In this document: one piece after another, positions 2,875 to 42,103 of the stretch
Position numbering within the stretch: position 1 is the first letter of the stretch
Layout of the letters: the number at the start of each line of letters is the position of its first letter
Virus record (IMG/VR): IMGVR_UViG_3300039186_000158
Coordinates: 1 to 42,103 of that record
DNA length: 42,103 nt
Strand: one strand, 5' to 3'
Source: a virus
Notes under the pieces: generated by a model
Told to the model about the DNA's origin: nothing
The model's input: only the letters and a program-made list of their open reading frames with translations
The model's database searches: none
Translations under genes and position numbers: made by a program

Positions 2875-3111
2875 ATGTCAGGATTAAAAAGTTTAAAAAA
2901 CACGAAAATATGTTACCCAAAAAACGAAACATGGTTTATATGTTGGGATGACACAAGAGAAAACATAATGGCTTACGGATCTATTCTTCCTACGCAATGT
3001 ATGGAGACTAAGTGGACAGAAGTAGATTATTATGATAATGAAGCTGAGTGGGCTGCTATTCTTTTAGAGAATGGTATTAATCCATTTCCAGATGAAGAAG
3101 AAGAAGAGTAA
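2875..3111 (+). CDS. Small acidic phage protein of unknown function
   Basis: 78 residues with an acidic C-terminal tail ending in a run of Glu. Trp-rich (TWFICWDDT, ETKWTEVDYYDNEAEWAAI). No recognised family. Its composition and size resemble the preceding 83-residue protein, and both lie between the fibre and the glycosyltransferase, 16 and 26 bases from their neighbours, so all are probably on one transcript. Confidence 0.65.
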   Translation: MSGLKSLKNTKICYPKNETWFICWDDTRENIMAYGSILPTQCMETKWTEVDYYDNEAEWAAILLENGINPFPDEEEEE

Positions 3112-3137
3112 TTATTAATTAAACCAACAACTACATA

Positions 3138-4154
3138 ATGAAAGACTTAAGATTTATTCAGGCATGTCCTGACGATACTTACTATACATGGCAAGTTCAC
3201 TTGTGGCTTGAGAGCCTTAGAGATTTAGGACATAGTGATAAAGCAATATCATTGATCTATATCCCAAAAGGAAGAAATAGAAATAGTAAATGGGATCAGG
3301 TAATTGAACTATATCCAGAAGCAGAGTTTAACTTCTTTAAAGATGAAGAAGGAGAGTTAAATGATATGCTTAGAGTTTATATACCTGTATTAAGACCTTA
3401 TGTCTTGTGGAAGTACTTTAAAGACAATCCTGAGATGCGTAGTAAAGCAATATTTTACTGTGATTCAGATATATTGTTTATGAAGGATTTCAATATAGAT
3501 GAGTTTTTAGAAGATGATGTTTGTTATCTATCAGATACAAATAGTTATATCAGTTCTAAATACTTTGACAGTAAAGTTAATGATGTTCTTCCTGAGAAAT
3601 TAGAAGAATACAAACATAGAGATATACTAGCAGAGATTGCTAGTGTGATAGGCATAAGCAGAGAAGTAGCTGAAGCTAACGCTGAACACTCTGGTGGAGC
3701 TCAATATTTATTAAAGAACGTAGATAGTTCATTTTGGAGCAAAGTTATGAATGACTCTGTTTTAATTAGAACATATCTACAGAAAGTAAATAGAGAGTTT
3801 TTTGCAGATGAAAATAAAGGATTTCAAAGCTGGTGTGCAGACATGTGGGCTGTGCTTTGGAACTTATGGATGAGAGAACAAGAAACAAAGGTAGTTCCTG
3901 AACTAAACTTTGCTTGGGCATCAGATCCTATAGTTAAATTAAAAACCACCACCATACTACATAATGCAGGTATTGTCTCAAATGATATGGGACATCCTTG
4001 TTTTTACAAAGGTAACTATCACACTGGTGGAGATCCTACTAGAGATAAACATCTAGAAACTGTAATAAACAATGAAAGCTCTAAAAAGTTTTGTACTTGG
4101 CATTATGCAAATGAATTAAAAAAATTGTCAAAAAAGTATAAATTAAAATATTAA
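3138..4154 (+). CDS. Putative glycosyltransferase (GT-A fold, DxD)
   Basis: 338 residues. Around residue 108 the sequence FYCDSDILF carries the D.D metal/nucleotide-sugar motif of GT-A transferases, preceded by RPYVLWKYF, an arrangement seen in GT8-like and peptidyl-O-galactosyltransferase-like families. A later SGGAQYLLKN and a His-rich end (LHNAG, YHTGG) fit substrate-binding loops. It would transfer a sugar from a nucleotide donor in the host cytoplasm. It lies directly downstream of the tail fibre and upstream of the anchor-module surface proteins, so glycosylation of virion proteins is a reasonable guess. The exact family and acceptor are not determined. Confidence 0.6.
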   Translation: MKDLRFIQACPDDTYYTWQVHLWLESLRDLGHSDKAISLIYIPKGRNRNSKWDQVIELYPEAEFNFFKDEEGELNDMLRVYIPVLRPYVLWKYFKDNPEMRSKAIFYCDSDILFMKDFNIDEFLEDDVCYLSDTNSYISSKYFDSKVNDVLPEKLEEYKHRDILAEIASVIGISREVAEANAEHSGGAQYLLKNVDSSFWSKVMNDSVLIRTYLQKVNREFFADENKGFQSWCADMWAVLWNLWMREQETKVVPELNFAWASDPIVKLKTTTILHNAGIVSNDMGHPCFYKGNYHTGGDPTRDKHLETVINNESSKKFCTWHYANELKKLSKKYKLKY

Positions 4155-40101: not shown

Positions 40102-40135
40102 CTTTGTTTTGGTTTAGTTCTATATTGTAATACAA

Positions 40136-40229
40136 TAGATGGGTGGGGTTTGAACCCACAAGACCGACTTATTTTCTTATGCAGCTATCCGTTAACGGAA
40201 CAGGCTTTAGCCAATTTGCCCACCACCTA
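40136..40229 (-). tRNA. tRNA-like gene, anticodon uncertain
   Basis: Read on the minus strand: 7-bp acceptor stem TAGGTGG/CCATCTA (one G-U), TG spacer, D arm GGC-AAATTGGCTAAA-GCC, and a perfect T arm GTGGG-TTCAAAC-CCCAC. Between D and T arms are 43 bases, long as in class II tRNAs, containing the palindrome TCCGTTAACGGA. No standard 7-base anticodon loop with U33 fits well: candidate loops are CGTTAAC (lacking U33) or GTTAACG (anticodon UAA, weak stem). No encoded CCA. Either a divergent suppressor/Leu-type phage tRNA or a degenerate one. Confidence 0.55.
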
Positions 40230-40555: not shown

Positions 40556-41128
40556 TTAATATATTGCGAAACCACCACACTCTCTTAGGAATGCAATAAA
40601 GTTTCTGATTCGTTTTAAATATGCTCCATGTTTAGGCTTCCAAACATTACCATCATCATCTACAAATGATCCAAACATCACTGTACCAATAGGATAGATT
40701 GCATTTAATGTATCAGTTTCTGATATAAGAGTAGTTCCACCATTTAATTTCTCCCATGATCCGTAGTTAACATAGAATGTATCATCGTCTTCTTGAAGAT
40801 TTTCTTCTTCTTCTATTATATACTCCATTGCATTTGCAAGTAAGTGACAATCTTCTTGAGTCTTGAGCCCATCACCATCATTAAACTGCCAGTTAATTTC
40901 TCCAAAGTTTAATCCTGAGTTTTCAATAGCGTGTTGACATAATGATGCTATTGGTCTCCAACCCCACATGTTCACTGTAAAAGAATAACCTGGATTAGTT
41001 CTCATAAAACAATCATTCTCATCCCAATAAGCTGATTGTTCTTTAGTTGACAACTCTTCATAGTTGTCAGGAAACTCAGGTTTTTTACCTTTTAATTTTG
41101 GATTTAATCCATTTATGTCCATTCCCAT
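40556..41128 (-). CDS. Conserved phage hypothetical protein
   Basis: 190 residues starting MGMDINGLNPKLKGKKPEFP, with FMRTNPGYSFTVNMWGWRPI. The MGMD..G.NP start and the N.W.WRP motif are recurrent in phage and bacterial hypothetical proteins, and the C-terminus YLKRIRNFIAFLRECGGFAI is also typical. Function unknown. The leader contains consecutive TTTA units (+ strand) before the ATG. Confidence 0.7.
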   Translation of the reverse strand: MGMDINGLNPKLKGKKPEFPDNYEELSTKEQSAYWDENDCFMRTNPGYSFTVNMWGWRPIASLCQHAIENSGLNFGEINWQFNDGDGLKTQEDCHLLANAMEYIIEEEENLQEDDDTFYVNYGSWEKLNGGTTLISETDTLNAIYPIGTVMFGSFVDDDGNVWKPKHGAYLKRIRNFIAFLRECGGFAIY

Positions 41129-41159
41129 AGTTTATATATTTATTTATTTATTTATTAGC

Positions 41160-41605
41160 ACCATCTATAGTAGTATCTATCTCTCCTTCTCTACACTAGT
41201 CTGGCATTACCCTGTCTGGATTAATAGATAGATGTGTAGTACTTTTACTACTATAAATTGTCACGAGATAAAAAGGTAAGCCAGATTTCTCCCGATTCCA
41301 GTATTAATGGGGTACGGTTAGTCTACTATTTCTTTATCTCTTGCTGTAAACTCCTAAGTGTTTTCTAAGATAGTCTTGGAGTTCTCCTCAATCCGTTATC
41401 CAACATATTACAATACAGTTGGTACACTTGATAGATTTAATATGTGGATGCGTCAATTCGTTTCTTTAAAAACTGTTGCCTGCCATAGGACAACTCAGTC
41501 ACAATTTATATTCTATCTTTATTTAGTGATTATTTTTACTCAGACTATTACTTACGCTTTTACTCTGACTATTCTTCATCACTTGGTCATAGGTTTAACC
41601 ATTTT
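41160..41605. ncRNA. Candidate large structured noncoding RNA
   Basis: About 450 bases without a convincing gene on either strand but dense in helices: 41166-41175/41246-41255 (10 bp), 41265-41272/41333-41340 (8 bp), 41349-41358/41375-41383 (9 bp, one bulge), 41398-41410/41438-41449 (12 bp, one bulge), 41475-41481/41487-41494 (7 bp, small loop), 41525-41530/41578-41583 (6 bp). 41176-41182/41226-41232 and 41191-41196/41234-41239 would cross, allowing a pseudoknot. Helices work on either strand; the neighbours suggest minus-strand transcription. Size, phage context and a nearby tRNA recall GOLLD/ROOL-type RNAs, but no family signature was recognised. Confidence 0.5.
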
Positions 41606-41661
41606 AATTCATTTTTAATTGTTAATACTATAAAAAACTCTTTGTCCCAATTTTAGTGGGT

Positions 41662-41683
41662 GTTATTCGGTGTTGTAAAACAT
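41662..41683. repeat. Cassette-boundary-like element D
   Basis: GTTATTCGGTGTTGTAAAAC followed by AT: it matches element C (29091-29114) except for a 2-base gap and two to three changes. It lies directly after the stop of the 80-aa gene at 41685, in the same relative place as elements A and B next to their genes. Confidence 0.45.
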
Positions 41684-41684
41684 A

Positions 41685-41927
41685 TTATTGCTTATTATTC
41701 TTTCTGCAATATTCACATTGTCTTTGGCAAACATCATCTTTACCTCTATGTACCTCGTCCAAGCAATAAAACGATTTAACAACAACGGGTATAGTTAATG
41801 CTTGGTTTTCGTGTTCCTTATACCATTCATCGAAATTAGGCTTACTCCTGCCCATTTGCCACTCTATATCGTATTGCTTGTCTTTTCCTGCTTCAAAAGC
41901 TTTTCTTAATAATTCTTTCATATTCAT
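41685..41927 (-). CDS. Small Cys-containing protein (80 aa) flanked by repeat elements
   Basis: 80 residues from the ATG at 41927 (a longer TTG-start frame enters element E and is not preferred). MNMKELLRKAFEAGKDKQYD then NFDEWYKEHENQALTIPVVV and DDVCQRQCEYCRKNNKQ. The Cys-rich tail (CQRQCEYC) may bind metal. The LLRKAFEAG...FDEW pattern is common among phage hypotheticals. Confidence 0.6.
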   Translation of the reverse strand: MNMKELLRKAFEAGKDKQYDIEWQMGRSKPNFDEWYKEHENQALTIPVVVKSFYCLDEVHRGKDDVCQRQCEYCRKNNKQ

Positions 41928-41954
41928 TAAATTTATCGTTATTAATTCCGCACT

Positions 41955-41999
41955 AACCATACCCAAATACGTTGTATGCAATTAAAAAAGACATACAAC
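41955..41999. repeat. Cassette-boundary-like element E with hairpin
   Basis: Contains a perfect inverted repeat GTTGTATG (41971-41978) / CATACAAC (41992-41999) with a 13-base spacer, plus ACGTTGTA resembling elements A-D. It lies upstream of the 80-aa gene, opposite element D. It could also be a terminator for a gene entering from the right edge. Confidence 0.4.
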
Positions 42000-42103
42000 A
42001 ATAAATATAAGTAATAGCGCAGGTCGCTTCTGTTTGTTCCAAATGGAGCTTTAATTTTTCCGCTACTACTCATATTCTTTGCAGTTAGCATTAATACTAA
42101 CCG
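42000..42103. other. Right edge: no assignable gene
   Basis: On the minus strand a frame is open from the window edge and runs leftward through element E, ending near 41940; another frame stops after about 11 codons. Neither gives a recognisable protein. The true content depends on sequence beyond the window. Confidence 0.3.

Follow-up and report, generated by a model that had tools for sequence, protein, structure and literature searches.

A predicted pseudoknotted noncoding RNA gene representing a new RNA family of phages

Locus and architecture of the RNA

The stretch of DNA analysed here, referred to as the window, comprises 42,103 nucleotides and corresponds to positions 1 to 42,103 of the IMG/VR virus record IMGVR_UViG_3300039186_000158. 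About 556 nt of it without a credible gene lie between a 98-aa ORF (41685–41981) and a 190-aa ORF (40556–41128), both on the minus strand; the gap in which an earlier note on this DNA had placed a large structured RNA is thereby borne out. A tRNA-like gene, which the note had put about 1 kb away, was located 0.92 kb downstream of the RNA (Table 1). This gene has a long variable arm and was called by ARAGORN with a UUA (stop) anticodon; a similar tRNA-like gene adjoins the RNA in a further contig, L283 (922–1017, plus strand; ARAGORN call AAA). The anticodon register of both is uncertain, and they could be of suppressor type or Leu-like class II tRNAs.

At least six helices had been proposed; seven (P1 to P7), with P5 as a long-range helix, were found and are backed by covariation. 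In 5' to 3' direction the RNA consists of P1, P2, P3, P5 around P4 and a variable helix, GGAGUUUACAGCAAG, P6, GUGACC, P7 and GGUGCUAA. The pseudoknot, previously considered possible, proved to be real in both types of the RNA and joins the P4 loop with the strand before P6; it is common to types I (the window's type) and II, as are the seven helix positions. The two near-identical 16-base repeats (41534–41549, 41558–41573) do lie inside one hairpin, which is P2. Being present only in the window and its nearest homologue, L160 (99% identity over 113 nt), they are regarded as a lineage-specific decoration. Members span 149–654 nt with a median of 310 nt, some matches being cut off, and the minimal member, L190, has about 200 nt; P6 is missing in L189 (type I), in G017 (type II) and in L312.

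Within the variable P3 helix of the window a terminator-like hairpin with a U-run was observed (41494–41475, minus strand), at which internal attenuation is possible. At a distance of a few tens of nt upstream of P1, members of both types (window 41630–41670, minus strand; L182, L193, L200, L283) have a small hairpin and, after it, CAAAGARYUUUUU; this is possibly a promoter, a terminator or the end of another RNA.

Table 1. Positions of the predicted RNA gene, its parts and associated features (window coordinates unless a contig is named)
Feature	Positions	Strand	Sequence and remarks
Predicted structured RNA gene, complete	41152–41601	minus	450 nt; 5' end at 41601; 3' end ...GGUGCUAAUAA at 41152; assigned by homology to about 125 contigs
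P1 hairpin	41584–41601	minus	UGGUUAAACCUAUGACCA; loop AAACC conserved, stem covaries freely
P2 hairpin	41526–41582	minus	GUGAU...AUCAC; variable, holds both 16-base repeats; missing in some members
P3	41430–41517	minus	GAUAGA (41512–41517) with UCUAUC (41430–41435); variable distal helix
P3 internal loop	within 41430–41517	minus	conserved AUAUAAAUUGU/ACAUAUUAAA
P5	41356–41429	minus	AAGUGU (41424–41429) with ACACUU (41356–41361); encloses P4 and the variable helix
P4 hairpin	41400–41422	minus	CCAACUGUAUUGUAAUAUGUUGG (CCAAC...GUUGG); loop UGUAA (41408–41412) is one side of the pseudoknot
J5/6	41340–41355	minus	AGGAGUUUACAGCAAG; UUACA (41346–41350) is the second side of the pseudoknot
P6	41265–41340	minus	GAGAUAAA with UUUAUCUC; variable distal helix
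P7	41160–41261	minus	ACAAUUUAUAGUAG (41248–41261) with CUACUAUAGAUGGU (41160–41173); variable distal helix, then conserved GGUGCUAA
tRNA-like gene	40135–40229	minus	95 nt; same strand as the RNA; module neighbour, outside the RNA
Hairpin repeat in L004	349–416, 1346–1402, 2241–2345, 3013–3062, 4264–4310		GTTGTATG...CATACAAC

Homologues and covariation

The viral collection yielded about 125 homologues, of which about 27 belong to type I and about 98 to the diverged type II. A blastn search of the window region against annotated phages gave no match, and a core consensus and L188 gave short chance-level matches only. No blast match to the window RNA was obtained in the relatives closest in DNA polymerase and in the 190-aa protein; against 50 related records, blastn of the RNA yielded short AT-rich matches only, and covariance model R1 (225 positions) found no match in the same 50 relatives, the window itself being found. 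The match of R1 to the window RNA has E 2.4e-23, the window being part of the training set. A scan with the 16-base repeat motif led to L160, a 107.9-kb record with two copies at identical spacing, which carries the same RNA at a different locus, with 113 nt at 99% and then 128 nt at 80% identity; genes common to L160 and the window are about 72% identical. Further type I members were obtained through conserved blocks of this pair, and about 20 were confirmed by a scan for seven motifs. Of 17 contigs matched by a 17-base pattern of type I, 10 were new, and 8 of these were recognised by R1.

A weak match of R1 was obtained in the cultured Cellulophaga phage phi14:2, where P1 to P7 could be followed by eye with different letters. 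This type II RNA (NC_021806, about 2911–3362) occupies the space from gp004 to gp005, from which spurious ORFs had been removed in the annotation; its presence in a cultured phage makes the family directly testable. R2, a model of the 3' half, led to diverged members among the relatives of the window's phage which R1 had missed; G003, with a polymerase 97% identical to that of the window, is one of them. P5 of type II reads UGUGUUG/CAACACA, CGCAU/AUGCG or CGUGAG/CUCACG, and the P4 loop CUUGAGAAA; type II is the same architecture and pseudoknot as type I, made of other sequences. R3, the type II model, added G017, and it recognised at E below 1e-5 all 97 viral contigs matched by an 18-base type II pattern; the covariance models also match sequences outside their training sets. 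Weak matches of R1 in crAss001, phi4:1 and two bacterial contigs, and of R3 in phi38:1 and crAss002, were without the helix pattern and were discarded as chance. Copies were found neither in 299 genomes of the Polaribacter family (R1) nor in 395 genomes of Polaribacter's phylum (R3), results of little weight, since both searches used stricter filters and sets without a positive control.

In 18 hand-trimmed type I sequences 94.6% of the cells were paired, with double changes in 22 of 46 pairs; none of 500 shuffles reached as high, and slid versions were 33–45% paired. A count including 51 pairs gave double changes in 23, 95.1% paired, again none of 500 shuffles as high, and 33–44% for slid versions. 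For type II (91 distinct rows; pairs of P2 counted as helix 2), 92.2% of the cells were paired and 32 of 40 pairs covary; double-changed cells numbered 394 versus 87 in shuffles, and the score was 0.301 versus at most 0.059 when slid, in an alignment fitted to the structure model, a bias which shuffles and slides share only in part. The covarying pairs of P3 include GATAGA/TCTATC, GGTAGA/TCTACC and GGTGGG/CCCACC, and P5 covaries both within and between the types. Type I shows no variation in the stem of P4, which is in part a consequence of the search pattern, since the pattern demanded this stem.

The pseudoknot of type I pairs UGURA of the P4 loop with UYACA before P6 (UGUAA/UUACA, UGUGA/UCACA and G-U intermediates; A-U 12, G-C 4, G-U 2), the J5/6 side being free of search-pattern constraint. 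The type II counterpart, UGAGAA with UUCUCA, has fully changed letters with the pairing kept; one side was fixed by the search pattern across the 97 contigs. A pairing of the P1 loop with J5/6 (AAAC with GUUU) fails in type II and was dropped.

The covariation analysis proposed in the earlier note gave helices that covary beyond shuffled and slid controls in both types, and the two objections raised there, lack of conservation in relatives and random pairing, are rejected by homologues and covariation. Folding energies compared with shuffled sequence showed a moderate gain on either strand (z -2.5 minus, -2.1 plus), so that energy alone neither proves structure nor assigns the strand; the structure in the window is counted as real because of the comparative evidence. 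Modest z-scores, alike on both strands, are what chance folding of AT-rich noncoding DNA could produce, but this explanation is practically negligible, being refuted by the covariation against both kinds of control and by model matches outside the training sets. On these comparisons, window positions 41601–41152 (minus strand) almost certainly represent a freestanding, conserved, pseudoknotted noncoding RNA gene, type I of a new phage RNA family, the hosts of which, where inferable, are Bacteroidota.

Comparison with known RNA families

A comparison with Rfam 15, suggested beforehand, was carried out, and no family matched, ROOL and GOLLD included: there was none at gathering scores across the whole window, and around the region no match up to E 10 exceeded chance level. 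Up to E 10 around the window RNA the ROOL model found no match, nor did it among 14 type I loci at gathering scores or, with a cutoff of E 0.1, among 8 type II loci, and the GOLLD covariance model was unmatched by the window and by the type I and type II loci searched. Cores of the RNase P, SRP, 6S and group I kinds, also considered, found no support in Rfam. No description of the family was found in Rfam, in the annotation of the phage record or in the open-access literature searched, the candidate lists of Fremin and Bhatt (PMC8040213) standing outside this comparison. The RNA class is rated new, and the broad kind, large phage RNAs near tRNA genes, is already known. The Rfam result, together with the many homologues, the covariation and the tRNA and tmRNA neighbours, supports the earlier suggestion of a new class other than GOLLD or ROOL.

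ROOL (Rumen-Originating, Ornate, Large) is a pseudoknotted noncoding RNA found in phages, large and ornate, and frequently situated near tRNA islands; GOLLD is phage-borne, lies near tRNA genes, has a more conserved 3' part and a more variable remainder, and is raised during lysis (PMC12286853). The new RNA resembles ROOL as a large ornate pseudoknotted phage RNA, often near tRNA genes (PMC12286853), whereas its 200–500 nt with a core of about 200 nt, its Bacteroidota phages, its frequent adjoining of tmRNA and the lack of a sequence or covariance-model match set it apart; the ROOL-like setting (phage-encoded, often near tRNA islands) was found in part, not in every member. It recalls GOLLD in being phage-borne and near tRNA genes, GOLLD combining a conserved 3' part with a variable remainder (PMC12286853), and differs by the missing covariance-model match, other helices and half the length or less (149–654 nt, against often over 800 nt).

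Copies of the RNA could perhaps form a cage or other homo-oligomer which encloses or stores something during infection, as a ROOL- or GOLLD-like function, and this would be compatible with the explanation preferred below. The common setting (phage, near tRNA islands, pseudoknot, conserved core, variable periphery; PMC12286853) agrees with such a function, and long peripheral helices of variable length would suit intermolecular packing; however, the minimal member with its 200 nt or so is far below the 659-nt and >800-nt cage formers, a conserved intermolecular loop pair was not found, and Rfam matches to ROOL or GOLLD are absent. As membership in these families was tested with a negative result, a function of this type is kept as a rival, rather unlikely, and not as a classification.

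Carriers, genomic neighbours and possible role

The carrier phages are diverse, a relative of the window's polymerase being present in 3 of 19 carrier records, some of which are short. L160 belongs to the window's phage family; L188, L193 and L196 have terminase or portal proteins of Crassvirales type, the nearest cultured relatives of L193 being Flavobacterium psychrophilum phages; L189 has a phi12:1-like terminase, and L185 and L194 encode GroEL. Because of these terminase and portal types and the cultured relatives, Bacteroidota hosts are supported for several carriers and would be expected for the window. In the phage group to which the window belongs, type I was detected in the window and G051, type II in G003, G013, G017, G021, G022, G029, G031, G039 and G040, and neither type in the other records searched with R1, R2 and R3. 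Close relatives of the window thus carry type II, or none, or (one) type I at another locus, and the distribution is patchy and probably horizontal.

Several copies contain inserts. In L290 (720–1500) an ORF of HNH type, assigned by reading the sequence, replaces P5/P4 of a type II RNA, the 3' half of which is nearly identical to the uninterrupted L292. The 5' part (P3 segment) is duplicated in L160 (375–800, minus strand) and L185 (7219–7620), with a small ORF and a terminator-like hairpin (in L160, CTACACTCAACAGGTTGAAAAATGAGTGTAGTTTTTT) between the duplicates, and L188 has an ORF between P5 and P6. The periphery of the RNA can therefore host passengers. A selfish mobile RNA element, an intron-like or ribozyme relic which hosts homing-endonuclease ORFs and moves between phages, would account for these ORFs, inside or between RNA parts, and for the patchy occurrence at different loci among close relatives, and phage group I introns with homing endonucleases likewise have peripheral loops of variable length. 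But the RNA lies between genes, not inside them, most members are without an ORF, and no member RNA searched matched group I or II introns (the only RF00028 match, in L202, is 9 kb away); the helix topology appears to be without the P3/P7 arrangement of group I, and a structure so strongly conserved between such distant sequences suggests that the RNA is of use to the phage. A mobile element is accordingly an improbable explanation.

Of the 9 records of the window's phage group with type II, 8 have a tmRNA gene on the same strand, 55–100 nt downstream of the RNA, and in phi14:2 the tmRNA gene follows 0.67 kb downstream. ARAGORN alone called a downstream same-strand tmRNA within 800 nt in 16 of 83 members (12 within 100 nt; two of the 16 calls permuted-type), rates which are lower bounds, since the program misses some phage tmRNAs. 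In many members, among them the window, no tmRNA was detectable nearby, and tRNA genes adjoin the RNA in further members. The tmRNA (RF00023) is a separate gene with its own Rfam match, whereas the new RNA has no tRNA-like domain or tag reading frame. As G016 and G050 possess tmRNA and lack the RNA, it must be dispensable for tmRNA. A 5' processing or maturation element of the tmRNA or tRNA transcript, without a job of its own, would fit the short distance and the constant strand, but with relatives having tmRNA without the RNA, and many members the RNA without tmRNA, it is very improbable.

Protein neighbours are not conserved: 65 families were counted among 89 downstream genes and 79 among 107 upstream genes, and the RNA is intergenic in all members inspected. 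Since the neighbouring protein genes differ, the RNA is not the leader of one gene. A cis-acting leader or attenuator of the following gene is suggested by the 23 nt between the window RNA and the 190-aa ORF, by distances of 25–35 nt to an ORF in some members, and by the terminator-like hairpin in the P3 insert; against it stand the unrelated downstream families, the median distance of 127 nt to the downstream gene, tmRNA or tRNA as the next gene in many members, and L002, L003 and L006, in which the 190-aa gene is retained behind other leaders and the window RNA is lacking. This alternative, too, has a low probability. In L182, L194, L328, L343 and L357 the gene after the RNA belongs to one recurrent protein family, whose start resembles METNKKVQVIMLPASKSH; in phi14:2 a gene that looks related to this family precedes the RNA.

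Because the RNA so often adjoins phage tmRNA or tRNA genes, it probably serves the phage in some connection with protein synthesis. It would be transcribed in the direction of the phage's other genes, with or beside the tRNA or tmRNA genes, and would fold into a compact core of P1, P3, P4–P5, the pseudoknot and P7, the peripheral helices being free to vary in length and sequence. The invariant single-stranded elements (the AAACC loop, GAGUUYNCAGCAAG, GUGACC and GGUGCUAA) may bind a partner, most likely the infected cell's translation machinery (ribosome, tRNA or tmRNA), and the RNA could act in trans as scaffold or modulator of the phage tRNA/tmRNA module; a pairing site for tRNA or ribosome was not identified in it. 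The family and such a trans-acting, translation-linked mechanism, taken together, have nearly an even chance of being correct. That a new RNA class has spread horizontally among unrelated Bacteroidota phages, including Crassvirales, and acts with phage tmRNA or tRNA to alter or rescue translation, is proposed tentatively.

Few classes of large structured phage RNAs are known, and their roles are open; the new family adds about 125 members with a pseudoknotted core proven by covariation, its compact natural version of about 200 nt (L190) should suit structure work, and the tmRNA link gives a concrete lead on the role of such RNAs and bears on why phages carry translation parts.

Some minor observations concern the phage group and its relatives. 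Phage-encoded tmRNA is common in the group (G013, G016, G017, G021, G027, G029, G033, G041, G050), in some cases with unusually long predicted tags, e.g., ANAQIEANMNKVFSLLNEDVIVGLAA. Other structured-looking leaders, different from the window's RNA, occur before the 190-aa gene and another gene in L003 (1000–1260) and L006 (1430–1560 and 3300–3410), followed by a AAUAAAUAAAU-like stretch before the start codon. The hairpin repeat of L004 (Table 1) recurs about every 1 kb between small ORFs and is also present in the window at 41906–42016; it resembles a series of gene cassettes or of repeated promoters in the variable region of the phage group.
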